From a virus: a stretch of 21,021 nt of DNA. Below the pieces are notes generated by a model that did no database searches, was not told the DNA's origin, and saw nothing but the letters and a program-made list of their open reading frames with translations. Below, in pieces: positions 15,844 to 20,571 of this stretch (positions are counted from its first letter, which is position 1; each line of letters begins with the position of its first letter). A program made the position numbers and the translations under genes. The DNA is taken from positions 1 through 21,021 of the IMG/VR virus record IMGVR_UViG_3300010885_042912. The stretch is one strand, 5' to 3'.

Positions 15844-16488
15844 TCACAGCAACGCCTCTCTGACCTCTTTCCGCCAAAGCACATACGCCGTGTACGCCTC
15901 TCGATCACCCGCCCACACACCACGATGCTGCTTGCGCAGGAACTCCAGCAGATCGGTGATCTCGGAGAACTTACCCTCCGGCAGATCGCCGTGCAGCATC
16001 TCGTACGCTGCCAGCGTTGGCTGCAGGTCGATCACCTTGGGCTCCCTGACGGCCTTCTTGCCTCCGAAAGCCTTGCGGTGGGCTAAGCACCGCCGAGTGA
16101 TGCTACGCGCGCCGCCTGCCGACGCCAGAGTGTCGTACTCCACGCCGCACTCGCAGCAGTGCGAGCGCCACTCGAAGAACGGCAGCGCTCTCCCGTTGGG
16201 CCTGCGGAACTGCACGCTAACGAACTCGAACACCTGCCCACGGAACTCGACCTCGTCGCCGACCTTCAGCGGTTCGAGGGGCTTGACCACCTCGCTGAAG
16301 GTCGGCGCTTTGGCGACAGGCGGCCGGGCACGATCCGCCGCCCGATACGCGTCCCCCGCATCGCCTGCGTCAGCGAACGACCCGAGGTACTGCTTGCGCC
16401 CCTCGACATAAATCTCAGCGATGAACTTGTCGATGCGAGCGTCATACCAAACCCCGCGATGAAGCTTCGCCAGTTCTCGTTTGTCCAT
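15844..16488 (-). CDS. AP2-like DNA-binding/zinc-finger protein, first gene of the leftward operon
   Basis: 214 aa from ATG 16488 (AGGAG, 7 nt upstream); a longer in-frame start at 16545 has no ribosome site. Residues 9-52 (LHRGVWYDARIDKFIAEIYV ... YLGSFADAGDAGDAYRAA) match the AP2/ERF-like fold found in phage homing-endonuclease and integrase-type DNA-binding modules. Residues 110-137 hold C111-x2-C114 and C134-x2-H137 in the pattern 'FEWRSHCCECG ... TRRCLAHR', a zinc finger common in phage proteins. No HNH or GIY-YIG nuclease motif is seen. The C-terminal part is helical. As the first gene after the divergent control region, it may act as a regulator or recognise packaging DNA. Function is inferred. 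Confidence 0.7.
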   Translation of the reverse strand: MDKRELAKLHRGVWYDARIDKFIAEIYVEGRKQYLGSFADAGDAGDAYRAADRARPPVAKAPTFSEVVKPLEPLKVGDEVEFRGQVFEFVSVQFRRPNGRALPFFEWRSHCCECGVEYDTLASAGGARSITRRCLAHRKAFGGKKAVREPKVIDLQPTLAAYEMLHGDLPEGKFSEITDLLEFLRKQHRGVWAGDREAYTAYVLWRKEVREALL

Positions 16489-16510: not shown

Positions 16511-16628
16511 TGTACAGGGGTTCCGTGTACAAAGCAACACACCAAACAGGGGATGGATGTACCATCCTAATAGGGTACATACATCCCCCTGTGTTGTGCT
16601 GCTTATATGGGTTACAACACCCTGTACA
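16511..16628. promoter_or_regulatory. Cluster of GTAC-centred sites (possible operators)
   Basis: TGTACA occurs at 16511-16516, 16526-16531 and 16623-16628, and related TGTACC/GGTACA occur at 16558-16563 and 16574-16579. Two pairs are 15-16 bp apart centre to centre, between one and two helical turns. The last site overlaps the leftward -35. Five GTAC in about 120 bp is far above chance. Binding protein unknown; the adjacent AP2-like protein is one candidate. Confidence 0.5.
16549..16588. repeat. Imperfect inverted repeat in the divergent control region
   Basis: Left arm GGGGATGGATGTACC (16549-16563) and right arm GGTACATACATCCCC (16574-16588) are complementary at 14 of 15 positions, with a 10-nt spacer. 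It lies in the untranslated leader of the leftward operon. It could be an operator for a dimeric repressor, a leader hairpin, or both. Confidence 0.75.
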
Positions 16629-16629
16629 A
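16602..16629 (-). promoter_or_regulatory. Leftward promoter for the packaging/structural operon
   Basis: On the minus strand, -35 TTGTAC (16629-16624) and -10 TATAAG (16607-16602) are 16 nt apart. Transcription would start near 16595 and leave a leader of about 107 nt before the ATG at 16488. That leader contains the long inverted repeat and four GTAC sites. The -35 itself overlaps a TGTACA. Confidence 0.45.
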
Positions 16630-16674
16630 CTTTAGCAACACGTTGCAAAACGATCCCCTGAGTGAAATCAGCTC

Positions 16675-16726
16675 TTGCATCCCCGCGTTGCATGCGCCAT
16701 ACCCTGTCTCAGCGGCACGGTGCCGC
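16675..16726 (+). promoter_or_regulatory. Early promoter/palindrome module 1
   Basis: TTGCAT (16675-16680), 17 nt, weak -10 CATACC (16698-16703), then GCGGCAC-G-GTGCCGC (16712-16726) at the expected transcript start. An AGGA ribosome site follows before the ATG at 16743. The same arrangement occurs at 17382 and 18245. Confidence 0.65.
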
Positions 16727-16742
16727 GCAGGAAACCTGACCA

Positions 16743-16940
16743 ATGACCACCCGCCCCGCCTTCCTCCAGCAGCGCCACGAAAACGGCGAGACCATCAAGA
16801 CCGCCTTCGGCTCGCTGCCCTTCGAACAGCAGCGCGACGTCGACCAGTGGCTGCTCAAAGCCAGCGTTTATGGCTCGCTGACGTGGCAAGAACAGCTTCT
16901 GTTCGCCGCCATCGAAGACGGCTTGTTCCTCGACTACTAA
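16743..16940 (+). CDS. Small early protein, unknown (first rightward gene)
   Basis: 65 aa. Helical and Gln-rich: 'PAFLQQRHENGETIKTAFGS' followed by 'LPFEQQRDVDQWLLKASVYG' and 'LTWQEQLLFAAIEDGLFLDY'. No Cys pairs, membrane segment or catalytic motif. An AGGA lies 10 nt upstream, directly after the palindrome of module 1. As the first gene of the rightward block it is likely expressed soon after infection, the usual place for host-takeover proteins. I do not recognise the family. Confidence 0.65.
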   Translation: MTTRPAFLQQRHENGETIKTAFGSLPFEQQRDVDQWLLKASVYGSLTWQEQLLFAAIEDGLFLDY

Positions 16941-16950
16941 AGGAAACACC

Positions 16951-17166
16951 ATGAACTTCTTCCCCACCCTCAACGACGCCCTCGAGGCGGAGGGCCTCAC
17001 CGCCCTCTGGCCGCTGGGTGTCAACGTCGGATACGGCGAGACCCGTGCCTTCTCGGCTGGCGGCCGCTGGATCGTGGTCTACCGCGACGAGCAGGGCCGC
17101 TACGAGCGCCCCGTCCACTACGCCACCTTGGTCCCCGAGACCTATCCGAAGGAGTACACGCTGTGA
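16951..17166 (+). CDS. Small early protein, unknown
   Basis: 71 aa with a ribosome site (AAGGA) 6 nt upstream. The sequence contains 'TLNDALEAEGLTALWPLGVN', 'VGYGETRAFSAGGRWIVVYR' and 'DEQGRYERPVHYATLVPET'. It is mixed alpha/beta with several aromatic residues, and the middle looks like a beta hairpin. Its last bases overlap the next start (GTGA). No known domain is recognised. Confidence 0.65.
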   Translation: MNFFPTLNDALEAEGLTALWPLGVNVGYGETRAFSAGGRWIVVYRDEQGRYERPVHYATLVPETYPKEYTL

Positions 17167-17378
17167 CCACCGAAGAGCGCCGCTGCGCCACTACAGGCAT
17201 GCGCAAGTGCGAGTGCGGCAACGTGGCGCGCGCTGGCGAGACCCAGTGCGGCCGCTGCGCCCGCACGGCGAGGGCTGAGCAGGACCTGCTCGGTCTCATC
17301 GACGATCTGAACCCGCACAGCCACGACTTCGGCGACGATCTGCGCACTATCCTCCGCCAACTTGCCGAACGCAATTAG
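17163..17378 (+). CDS. Small zinc-ribbon-like early protein
   Basis: 71 aa with a GTG start overlapping the preceding stop (GTGA). Cysteines at 8, 16, 18, 29 and 32 (RKCECGNVARAGETQCGRCA) make a C-x-C ... C-x2-C arrangement suited to one zinc ion. The second half is an acidic helix (EQDLLGLIDDLNPHSHDFGD). Small zinc ribbons often mediate protein or nucleic-acid contacts, but no partner can be named. Its TAG stop lies inside GCAATTAG, directly before the -35 of module 2, and module 3 has the same upstream sequence. Confidence 0.6.
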   Translation: MTTEERRCATTGMRKCECGNVARAGETQCGRCARTARAEQDLLGLIDDLNPHSHDFGDDLRTILRQLAERN

Positions 17379-17381
17379 TGC

Positions 17382-17435
17382 TTGCACCCTGCAACGGGAC
17401 GTGCAATACCCTGTTTCAGCGGCACGGTGCCGCTG
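17382..17435 (+). promoter_or_regulatory. Early promoter/palindrome module 2
   Basis: TTGCAC (17382-17387), 17 nt, weak -10 AATACC (17405-17410), then the palindrome GCGGCAC-G-GTGCCGC, here extended to 9-bp arms (CAGCGGCAC/GTGCCGCTG, 17417-17435). A strong AGGAG follows before the ATG at 17449. Confidence 0.65.
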
Positions 17436-17448
17436 TAGGAGATTAGCC

Positions 17449-17697
17449 ATGAGCTACCTCGAAGCAACCAAGACCGCCCCGGCTGATGCCGATTTCGTCG
17501 CCTACCGCAATCTCGGCCTCGGCTGGAGCATCGCGCAGCGTTTGCCTGACGGCGCGTTCGACACCGCTGCCGCGCTGACGCCCCCCGCACTCTCGATCTT
17601 CATCAGCGGCGTCAGCGCTCGCCGCCGGTCGCTCTGGAACTACGAGACCAAGCAGTTCGAGTGCGGCGACCTCAGTCAGCTCACGCGGGAGGCCTGA
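17449..17697 (+). CDS. Small early protein, unknown
   Basis: 82 aa from ATG 17449 (AGGAG, 7 nt upstream). A longer in-frame start at 17362 would cross module 2, so I reject it. Sequence features: 'ADADFVAYRNLGLGWSIAQR', a proline-containing middle and 'SGVSARRRSLWNYETKQFEC'. No known motif. It is the first gene of the second rightward module and ends 3 nt before the next start. Confidence 0.65.
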   Translation: MSYLEATKTAPADADFVAYRNLGLGWSIAQRLPDGAFDTAAALTPPALSIFISGVSARRRSLWNYETKQFECGDLSQLTREA

Positions 17698-17700
17698 GCC

Positions 17701-17901
17701 ATGAACCGCAAGATCGACCTCTACCGCGTCTACCGCAACGAGCGGGGCCGGATCGCACGCACCGAGTACGTCTGCTCGACGTGCTGGGCGAAGACCTGCA
17801 AGGCCGCAGTCGCCAAGTTCCACGAGATCAACGGCACCGACTATATCTCGGGCAAGAACCTCGTCCCCCTCAACGTCGAGATCAAGGGGCAGTTCGCGTG
17901 A
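17701..17901 (+). CDS. Small Cys-containing early protein, unknown
   Basis: 66 aa; a GGGAGG lies 8 nt before the ATG, inside the preceding gene's last codons. 'LYRVYRNERGRIARTEYVCS' leads into C-x2-C-x4-C (CSTCWAKTC), then 'AAVAKFHEINGTDYISGKNL' and 'VPLNVEIKGQFA'. The layout (beta hairpin, Cys cluster, helix, strand) suggests a small metal-stabilised fold. Its stop overlaps the next start (GTGA). Function unknown. Confidence 0.65.
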   Translation: MNRKIDLYRVYRNERGRIARTEYVCSTCWAKTCKAAVAKFHEINGTDYISGKNLVPLNVEIKGQFA

Positions 17902-18071
17902 CCCTCACCGTCGCCATCCGCAACAACTACGGCCAGCGCGCCGTGTACCCCGCCTGCGAGACGAGCCGCAAGCTCGCCGCGCTGGTGGGGGCCAAGACCT
18001 TCACCGACCGCGTGATCGACCAGCTCAAGGGCCTCGGCTACGTGTTCACCGTCAAGCAGGAGACAATCTGA
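17898..18071 (+). CDS. Small conserved phage protein, unknown
   Basis: 57 aa, translated from a GTG at 17898 overlapping the previous stop. A longer open frame to 17661 only covers the neighbouring gene. Sequence: 'TLTVAIRNNYGQRAVYPACE', TSRKLAALVGAKTFTDRVID and QLKGLGYVFTVKQETI. I recognise this 'IRNNYGxRAxYPACExSRKLAALVGxKTFT' pattern from small early genes of many phages and prophages; no function is known to me. It is followed by the 'LQGWFGRT' gene with a 1-nt overlap (TGATG). Confidence 0.7.
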   Translation: MTLTVAIRNNYGQRAVYPACETSRKLAALVGAKTFTDRVIDQLKGLGYVFTVKQETI

Positions 18072-18241
18072 TGGACACCTTCACCGCAACCATGATCGCC
18101 GAGGGCGTCGAGGAAGCCGACCACGACCAGATGGTCGAGGCATGGCAGACCCTGCACGACACCGGCGTCGCATACCAGCTGCAGGGCTGGTTCGGCCGCA
18201 CTGCGCAGGACCTGATCGCGCAGGGCTTTATTTGCAATTAG
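18071..18241 (+). CDS. 'LQGWFGRT' small phage protein family (DUF7417-like)
   Basis: 56 aa, translated by hand from ATG 18071. 'AEGVEEADHDQMVEAWQTLH' is followed by DTGVAYQLQGWFGRTAQDLI and a short C-terminus. This WQxLxDTGxAxQLQGWFGRT core is one of the most widespread small-protein patterns in phages; I believe it corresponds to DUF7417, but could not check. The role is unknown. Its TAG sits in GCAATTAG, which begins module 3. Presence next to the gene at 17898 repeats a pairing that I associate with other phages. Confidence 0.75.
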   Translation: MDTFTATMIAEGVEEADHDQMVEAWQTLHDTGVAYQLQGWFGRTAQDLIAQGFICN

Positions 18242-18244
18242 CAC

Positions 18245-18295
18245 TTGCACGTGCCGCTGAGGTGTGCTCTATGGTCCTCAGCGGCACGGTGCCGC
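18245..18295 (+). promoter_or_regulatory. Early promoter/palindrome module 3 with an additional 12-bp inverted repeat
   Basis: TTGCAC (18245-18250), 17 nt, weak -10 TCTATG (18268-18273), then GCGGCAC-G-GTGCCGC (18281-18295). Unlike the other two, it also has GTGCCGCTGAGG (18251-18262) perfectly complementary to CCTCAGCGGCAC (18276-18287), bracketing the -10. AAGGAG follows, 8 nt before the ATG at 18311. Confidence 0.65.
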
Positions 18296-18310
18296 GAAGG
18301 AGATACTGAG

Positions 18311-18532
18311 ATGGCAACGTACCACGTAGTTTGCAATCGCGTCGAGGGCTCGCTCTGCCAAACCGATGACATCGTGCATGCTGGCCGCGTCGTCGACGCC
18401 CTCATGCGCACCCGTGACGACCCGAAGTGGTGCGATTACTGGGTGGTCGATGATCACGGCAACGAGTTTTATCACGACGCCGGTTTCGCCACCGTGTTCA
18501 GCGCGGCCTGCTTTGTGGAGAAGGCAGCATGA
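18311..18532 (+). CDS. Small early protein, unknown
   Basis: 73 aa from ATG 18311; an upstream in-frame start at 18245 would cross the palindrome and is rejected. Sequence: 'MATYHVVCNRVEGSLCQTDD', 'IVHAGRVVDALMRTRDDPKW', 'CDYWVVDDHGNEFYHDAGFA' and a C-terminal helix. It looks like a compact alpha/beta protein with a conserved-looking aromatic 'YWVVDDHGNEFY' hairpin. It overlaps the next gene by 4 nt (ATGA). No family recognised. Confidence 0.65.
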   Translation: MATYHVVCNRVEGSLCQTDDIVHAGRVVDALMRTRDDPKWCDYWVVDDHGNEFYHDAGFATVFSAACFVEKAA

Positions 18533-19939: not shown

Positions 19940-20186
19940 AGCTCTTGTTCTTCGCAAACTGGCGAATGGCCCTGCCTATGCGCGGTCATTCCACACATGC
20001 AAGCCGGTTGTGGATAGGCTGGTGAGACAGGGGCGGATTCGGCGCGTAGCCCCACATGGAAGCCGAATGAAGAACATGATCGAACTTGCCCCAATTCCTC
20101 GCGCGGTAATTGGCCGGAATAATCCCACCGGACAGGTTGCGCGCGAGGAAACCACCAAAGCAAAGGCCCCACACCATGACCGCTAA
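19923..20186 (+). CDS. Small winged-helix-like protein
   Basis: 87 aa from ATG 19923 (GGAGG upstream). A longer frame to 19815 overlaps the preceding gene and is rejected. 'MSAAIEALVLRKLANGPAYA' is followed by 'RSFHTCKPVVDRLVRQGRIR' and RVAPHGSRMKNMIELAP. The helix-turn-helix-wing order, with basic residues in the second helix, suggests DNA binding. The remaining 30 residues are basic and probably disordered. It is a candidate regulator of the early modules, without direct support. It overlaps the Lar-like gene by 11 nt. Confidence 0.6.
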   Translation: MSAAIEALVLRKLANGPAYARSFHTCKPVVDRLVRQGRIRRVAPHGSRMKNMIELAPIPRAVIGRNNPTGQVAREETTKAKAPHHDR

Positions 20187-20571
20187 CCTAACCGAACAAC
20201 TCGCCGCGCTGAGTGAGGCGGAACTTCTGCCGTGCCCGTTTTGTGGCAGTCGCAATTTGCATGTGCACGACAGCGTTTCGTCTTACGTCGAATGCAATGA
20301 TTGCCATGCAGAAGGCCCGTGGAACGATGGTAGTTTGGTTGAAGCCCTCGCCGCATGGAACACCCGCGCCAACCAGATCGCAGTGACCGGGCCGGATGCT
20401 GTGGAGCGGGTGGCGCGGGCACTTTGTGAGCAAGCCATCCTTTCGCAGTATCAGATTGGGGCTGATCCAGTTGACCTAGCCCCATTTCGCGCCGTGGAAG
20501 TGGGTCATATGTGGCCTGACTGGACGGATGCCGCCACCGCCGCCCTCGCCGCGTTTACGGGGAGGGTGTGA
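20176..20571 (+). CDS. Lar-like restriction-alleviation protein with a C-terminal extension
   Basis: 131 aa from ATG 20176. The N-terminal half has ELLPCPFCGSRNLHVHDSVS and 'YVECNDCHAEGPWND', with C20/C23 and C40/C43 as a zinc ribbon, then the typical 'SLVEALAAWNTR' (53-64). This is the Lar pattern; E. coli Rac prophage Lar lowers type I restriction by promoting modification. Most such proteins are about 60-70 aa. Here an extra 65 residues follow (AVERVARALCEQAILSQYQI ... MWPDWTDAATAALAAF), a helical pattern also found at the end of other small phage proteins. It could protect incoming DNA, but Lar-like zinc ribbons are widespread and anti-restriction activity is inferred. Confidence 0.75.
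   Translation: MTANLTEQLAALSEAELLPCPFCGSRNLHVHDSVSSYVECNDCHAEGPWNDGSLVEALAAWNTRANQIAVTGPDAVERVARALCEQAILSQYQIGADPVDLAPFRAVEVGHMWPDWTDAATAALAAFTGRV

Follow-up and report, generated by a model that had tools for sequence, protein, structure and literature searches.

Promoter and hairpin cassettes repeated at three early gene modules of a phage contig

The PeSLs of T4-like phages, which Comeau et al. are said to have described in 2014, are reportedly composite promoter-plus-stem-loop boxes tied to modular gene shuffling, and are also said to have been presented as promoter-terminator motifs. The SAS/ESAS sequences of Cluster K mycobacteriophages recur between genes of the non-structural genome half; they combine SigA-like -35 and -10 hexamers at 17-18 bp with an inverted repeat of 15-17 bp, followed by a sequence that is conserved at start codons, and their function is unproven (PMC3203893, PMC11373665). 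RppH and RNase E require single-stranded 5′ ends, which is why a hairpin at this end protects a message, and a 5′ hairpin added to bla mRNA stabilises it (PMC3997798). The T4 gene 32 mRNA is likewise stabilised by a 5′ hairpin leader (PMC8948821).

The element described here is a phage leader of a type already known in kind, the nearest being ESAS/SAS, PeSLs and CUUCGG hairpins. A preliminary description of this DNA had known of no described element with this sequence. That holds for the literature searched and for Rfam, in which, at gathering and relaxed thresholds, the element of the window and the hairpins of 12 other loci had no match, but the same 15-mer lies beside an annotated ribosome site of phage phiAsp2, and the kind of element is a known one.

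Layout of the three-copy cassette

The window, that is the whole stretch of DNA under analysis, is the phage contig IMGVR_UViG_3300010885_042912 of 21,021 bases. Its leftward genes include those for portal, terminase large and small subunits and head proteins, and its rightward small genes begin at 16.7 kb. The features of the three modules are as follows.

16675-16703, + strand: module 1 promoter, TTGCAT (16675-16680), N17, CATACC (16698-16703), from the sequence and the promoter family in relatives
16711-16726, + strand: module 1 predicted +1 (A16711) and hairpin GCGGCA-CGG-UGCCGC, from the exact repeat, the fold and same-place hairpins in other phages
16729-16745, + strand: module 1 AGGA and ATG (16743) of the first gene, 16743-16940
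16743-16940, 16951-17166 and 17163-17378, + strand: module 1 genes for 65, 71 and 71 aa, without match in a Pfam search
17371-17378, + strand: GCAATTAG before copy 2, left arm of a GCAA-N7-TTGC dyad and stop of the preceding gene; the dyad is also found in relatives and in KcrB
17382-17410, + strand: module 2 promoter, TTGCAC (17382-17387), N17, AATACC (17405-17410)
17417-17435, + strand: module 2 palindrome of 19 bp, CAGCGGCACGGTGCCGCTG, with a hairpin from the predicted +1 (A17418)
17437-17451, + strand: AGGAG and ATG (17449) of the first gene of module 2
17449-17697, 17701-17901, 17898-18071 and 18071-18241, + strand: module 2 genes, the last being DUF7417
18234-18241, + strand: GCAATTAG before copy 3, left dyad arm and stop of the preceding gene
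18245-18273, + strand: module 3 promoter, TTGCAC (18245-18250), N17, TCTATG (18268-18273)
18280-18295, + strand: module 3 predicted +1 (A18280) and hairpin GCGGCA-CGG-UGCCGC, an exact repeat, with an alternative fold involving the AUG region
18298-18313, + strand: AGGAG and ATG (18311) of the first gene of module 3

The 15-bp palindrome GCGGCACGGTGCCGC is present in three exact copies (16712-16726, 17419-17433 and 18281-18295), and a search of the 21-kb record, as earlier proposed, found it in these three cassettes and nowhere else. The distance from TTGCA to the palindrome is 37, 37 and 36 nt in copies 1, 2 and 3, and the composite TTGCAY-N28-34-CAGCGGCACGGTGCCGC gave three matches in the window against none in 100 shuffles, in full support of the order promoter, palindrome, ribosome site and ATG first noticed at 16675, 17382 and 18245. 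CA precedes the palindrome on its 5′ side in all three copies, AGGA(G) starts 2-3 nt on its 3′ side and is followed by the ATG, and in copy 2 the symmetry extends to 19 bp. By eye, the 17-nt spacers are identical at just 6-7 of 17 positions; the cassette is therefore not one recently copied block, and the palindrome and its distance are indeed better conserved than the spacer, as had been claimed. The same description gave the spacer as exactly 17 nt and the -10 as weak: all three hexamers at N17 (CATACC, AATACC and TCTATG) are weak, as are the promoters against the E. coli consensus, but the value of 17 partly reflects the choice of hexamer. The sequence before the -35 of copies 2 and 3 was also correctly said to supply the preceding stop, since GCAATTAG includes the TAG of the upstream gene (ending at 17378 and 18241).

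Several other features of this region were recorded. The 56-aa product of the last module 2 gene (18071-18241, + strand) matches Pfam DUF7417, and another early gene (20110-20571, + strand) encodes a Lar-like restriction alleviation protein (PHROG 599). An ORF on the opposite strand (15844-16488), which separates the gene for the small terminase subunit from the early region, matches HNH-endonuclease families (PHROG 953 and 99) in its first 50 residues, and the intergenic stretch 16520-16660 contains inverted words, such as GCAACACGTTGC and ATGTACC/GGTACAT, that are possibly regulator sites.

As RNA, the palindrome is predicted to form a 6-bp stem with a CGG loop, or a 5-bp stem with an ACGGU loop, starting 8-9 nt past the -10 hexamer. 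An A sits 7-8 nt past the -10 and immediately 5′ of the palindrome, and we infer from this position that it is the natural +1, which would place the stem 1 nt behind the start of the message. The z-scores of the folds are weak (-0.3 to -1.7), and the three stems are identical, so that the window's own copies offer no covariation. When coding sequence is included, copy 3 and the unrelated contig L004 have a slightly better fold, in which the 5′ arm pairs near the AUG. A U-tract was found 3′ of none of the window copies, for which reason an RNA hairpin fits better than an intrinsic terminator, a candidate that was rejected; nor was any rightward terminator-like site found between the window modules. 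An N4-type virion-polymerase hairpin promoter, considered for its 3-nt loop, was rejected as well, because -35/-10-like elements precede every copy, because the promoter occurs in relatives that lack the hairpin, and because RNA polymerase is, as far as the table of PMC11053796 is legible, not ticked there for the related Riverwalk phages.

Promoters and leader hairpins in other phages

A promoter family of the form (GCAA-N7/8-)TTGCA-N17-(-10)-N~6-TCAGC is widespread in phages, and its members precede early genes of the terminase relatives of the window (61-66% identical) and of the cultured Caulobacter phage KcrB. The palindrome GCGGCACGGTGCCGC is absent from the terminase relatives tested, which the preliminary description would have counted against a functional site; the promoter and the leader position are nevertheless kept. 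These relatives carry repeated TTGCA-N17-(-10)-N~6-TCAGCAAC-GGAG-ATG boxes on the same genome side as the window, and in KcrB (terminase 61% identical) the family promoters stand ahead of the early genes, just right of the terminal repeat. Scanning for the promoter-box pattern gave at least 120 stretches, many contigs having multiple copies, with a peak of spacing at 35-36 nt (59 of 95 among the matches listed) that separates true family members from chance matches. GCAA often lies 7-8 nt upstream of TTGCA, making a GCAA/TTGC dyad of which GCAATTAG is the left arm. The window shares TCAGC at the start, yet a hairpin stands where most relatives, with their unstructured TCAGCAAC-GGAG, have AAC and the ribosome site.

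Dozens of phage contigs (L096, L131, L144, L173 and others; in L131 at 6586, 7676 and 10468) contain boxes of the type TTGCA-N17-(-10)-TCAGCAAC-GGAG, as many as four in a single fetched locus, with TCAGCAAC strictly conserved around +1.

Perfect hairpins among the terminase relatives were found only at the first early gene of KcrB (ACCGGCG-gcgag-CGCCGGU, offset 35) and in L235 (GGGGCG-CGC-CGCCCC, offset 39), a number not above chance by itself. In the Actinoplanes phage phiAsp2, an identical GCGGCACGGTGCCGC lies directly before the annotated pas69 ribosome site and after TAGACA-N17-TAAGGT; a second module of this phage (gene at L602:18892) has a different hairpin, GGCGCG-AGGGA-CGCGCC, and contig L423 has nearly the same leader as pas69. 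The exact 15-mer of the window also occurs in L004, with a different spacer and a divergent helix-turn-helix-like regulator gene alongside. A search of viral contigs for the 17-mer CAGCGGCACGGTGCCGC gave 43 matches, nearly all coding as judged by eye, with the full layout only in L004, and a pattern search of bacterial genomes gave 16 matches, none of which by eye had the promoter-hairpin-start layout save a doubtful case in a Prevotella MAG. The pattern AGCGGCAC-NNN-GCCGC before a Shine-Dalgarno site and ATG was found in 76 contigs, and an arms-swapped pattern, intended as negative control, in 106, with promoter-coupled copies equal to or more than those of the original; since the control is as frequent or more, the exact stem sequence is not special. 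Many copies in both sets had a good promoter just upstream, and several lay beside operator-like repeats as in temperate phages.

Hairpins in general are enriched at this place, in tests that pool many phages unrelated to the window and keep a residual bias, many loci having been fetched by hairpin patterns even though the matched sites were excluded. Of 125 promoter/leader sites counted without the pattern-selected hairpins, 22 had a leader stem of 5 bp or longer, whereas shuffled leaders gave 5.3, and no more than 11 in any of 50 shuffles. For promoters scoring at least 12 in the fetched contigs, 31 hairpin starts fell 8-13 nt past the -10 and 2-7 in each of the later bins. A strand test, in which RNA pairing would tolerate G-U more than A-C, gave 3 G-T vs 6 A-C, too few cases to decide. 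G014, L289, L497, KcrB and L235 have different stems at this position, and what is kept is the structure, not the sequence.

The 95-kb phage G014 (IMGVR_UViG_3300032235_000911) has many promoter-hairpin modules, nearly every one with a different stem. It was chosen for showing such hairpins, so that its counts illustrate rather than estimate: a hairpin accompanies 9 of 42 starts at the early end (1.0 shuffled, maximum 3) and 6 of 52 elsewhere (0.7 shuffled). In six of its hairpins plus that of the window, all five stem pairs vary and the loop stays A-Y-G-R-A/U; pairing was demanded by the search, and hence the evidence lies not in stem pairing itself but in enrichment, position and loop.

Additional observations concern leaders and repeats in the same collection. 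The early region of G014 (L597, 3963-11733) has about ten hairpin-Shine-Dalgarno starts, mostly with promoter-like sites and mostly with different stems, and several G014 loops read AYGGA, resembling the CsrA/Rsm target. In L441, a longer leader (CCTGG..CCAGG stem, AGCGGCACCAAGCCGC and a Shine-Dalgarno site) occurs three times, at 507, 1018 and 5908, before three genes. A 12-nt periodic repeat is shared by L004 (2870-3080) and L012 (1141-1380), phages that look otherwise unrelated, and codes in L004 for a stretch rich in Ala, Trp and Asp (WDAARVAAG).

Candidate functions of the hairpin

The three-copy cassette is a real repeated element with a likely function in RNA; it probably marks the message, a repressor switch common to the modules being the less favoured role. 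We lean, with somewhat better than even confidence, towards a cassette whose 5′-terminal hairpin shields the message from 5′-end-dependent decay and leaves its ribosome site accessible. Host RNA polymerase would read a promoter of host type (TTGCAY, 17 nt and a weak -10), and the RNA would start on AGCGGCACGGUGCCGC or no more than 1-2 nt away from it. The message would thus carry a 5′-terminal hairpin, with a 6-bp stem and a CGG loop, followed by the Shine-Dalgarno site and start codon. Presumed to fold on leaving the polymerase, the hairpin could sequester the 5′ end and slow decay of the RppH/RNase E type (or RNase J type). It lies 1-3 nt upstream of the ribosome site and may also keep that site open, the leader being packed away so that the Shine-Dalgarno sequence would be free whichever gene follows. 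Given such protection and an open Shine-Dalgarno site, the message of each module would be robust and independent of its neighbours.

Between an operator and a 5′ hairpin, the two readings offered at first, the hairpin is favoured by its predicted +1 position, by stems that change within one genome, by hairpins that occupy this position in other phages and by the known precedents. An operator, in which a phage repressor would bind the 15-bp palindrome at +1 as DNA and shut off the three early transcripts jointly, is unlikely in our estimate. The dyad is perfect, odd-centred and at a classic +1 operator position, it is identical at three promoters despite their diverged spacers and recurs beside the regulator gene of L004, and the C-G pair adjoining its centre is symmetric, though a 3-nt RNA loop has no need of it. 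Yet terminase relatives lack the palindrome, hairpins of other sequence occupy its place in KcrB, L235 and phiAsp2, and the stems of G014 differ at most modules; the loops of several hairpins are asymmetric, three contigs (L335, L367 and L317) have lost the inner symmetry but not the outer arms, and no repressor gene was recognised among the subset of window genes searched.

Proteins of the CsrA/Rsm type read A-N-GGA in hairpin loops, and a docking site for such a host protein, or for one made by the phage, could place the early modules under joint translational control. This we consider slightly less probable again: G014 and the window have the A-Y-G-R-A/U loop in common on varying stems, ACGG loops sit on different stems in L289 and L567, and the hairpin abuts the Shine-Dalgarno site, but the window loop is ACGGU instead of ANGGA, A-N-GGA occurs only in several G014 hairpins, and other loops are found in KcrB, L235 and many temperate phages. 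It is improbable that the boxes serve mainly as homology for PeSL-like shuffling of early modules, with no role in RNA. The copies do separate modules and provide the preceding gene's stop, and early genes turn over fast (a search with 14 rightward window genes gave a match in the fetched phage loci for only one), but the identity spans only about 15-25 nt, which is short for homology, and differing hairpins at the same spot within one genome would recombine poorly. Chance or drift in a GC-rich leader with coincidental palindromes is already very unlikely as the origin of the window's repeats, since the threefold exact repetition at a constant position and the enrichment of hairpins in independent phages outweigh the abundance of short hairpins in GC-rich genomes and their lack of enrichment in the close family of the window.

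A broader proposal, to which we give little credence at present, is a wide undescribed class of early-message 5′ hairpins in phages of Alphaproteobacteria and Actinobacteria, situated between +1 and the Shine-Dalgarno site, with a free stem and an A-Y-G-G-A/U loop that a host or phage RNA-binding factor would read, switching or protecting all early modules together.

If the protective 5′-terminal hairpin is correct, the early messages of phages would often be capped by a hairpin formed from their first nucleotides, a simple modular device by which any gene dropped behind the promoter would still be translated and long-lived. It would provide a searchable early-promoter signature for unannotated phage contigs, a repertoire of natural promoter-leader parts and a concrete test of phage escape from 5′-end-dependent RNA decay.

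Comparison with described boxes and leaders

Like SAS/ESAS, the window has repeated intergenic boxes with a SigA-like promoter, although weak against the E. coli consensus, and an inverted repeat. In SAS/ESAS the inverted repeat lies within the 46-47 bp motif of the promoter, with arms 4-14 bp apart, whereas the palindrome of the window follows the -10 and has a 1-nt centre. SAS/ESAS carry the 13-bp box GGGATAGGAGCCC at the start, in contrast to the ordinary Shine-Dalgarno site here; GGGATAGGAGCCC is absent near all three window start codons, which have GCAGGAAACCTGACCA, TGTAGGAGATTAGCC and GAAGGAGATACTGAG in its stead. The stem-loop of the cassette differs from that of PeSLs in lacking a U-tract and in standing after the promoter, inside the new transcript. 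The CUUCGG hairpins of T4 and its gene 32 leader (cited in PMC8948821) are likewise recurrent intergenic hairpins of a phage, one of which stabilises a message from its 5′ leader; they have a UUCG loop, and here the loops are ACGGU/AYGGA and the hairpins start at the predicted +1. The window hairpins have no C(UUCG)G loop, theirs being CGG or ACGGU. The 5′-terminal stabilising stem-loops of ompA and papA and the bla hairpin (PMC3997798) also stand at or near the 5′ end of the message and protect by hiding it, as is predicted for the window. They belong to host leaders of single genes with a proven effect, whereas the hairpins of the window, with a putative effect, occur one per module in a much shorter leader.
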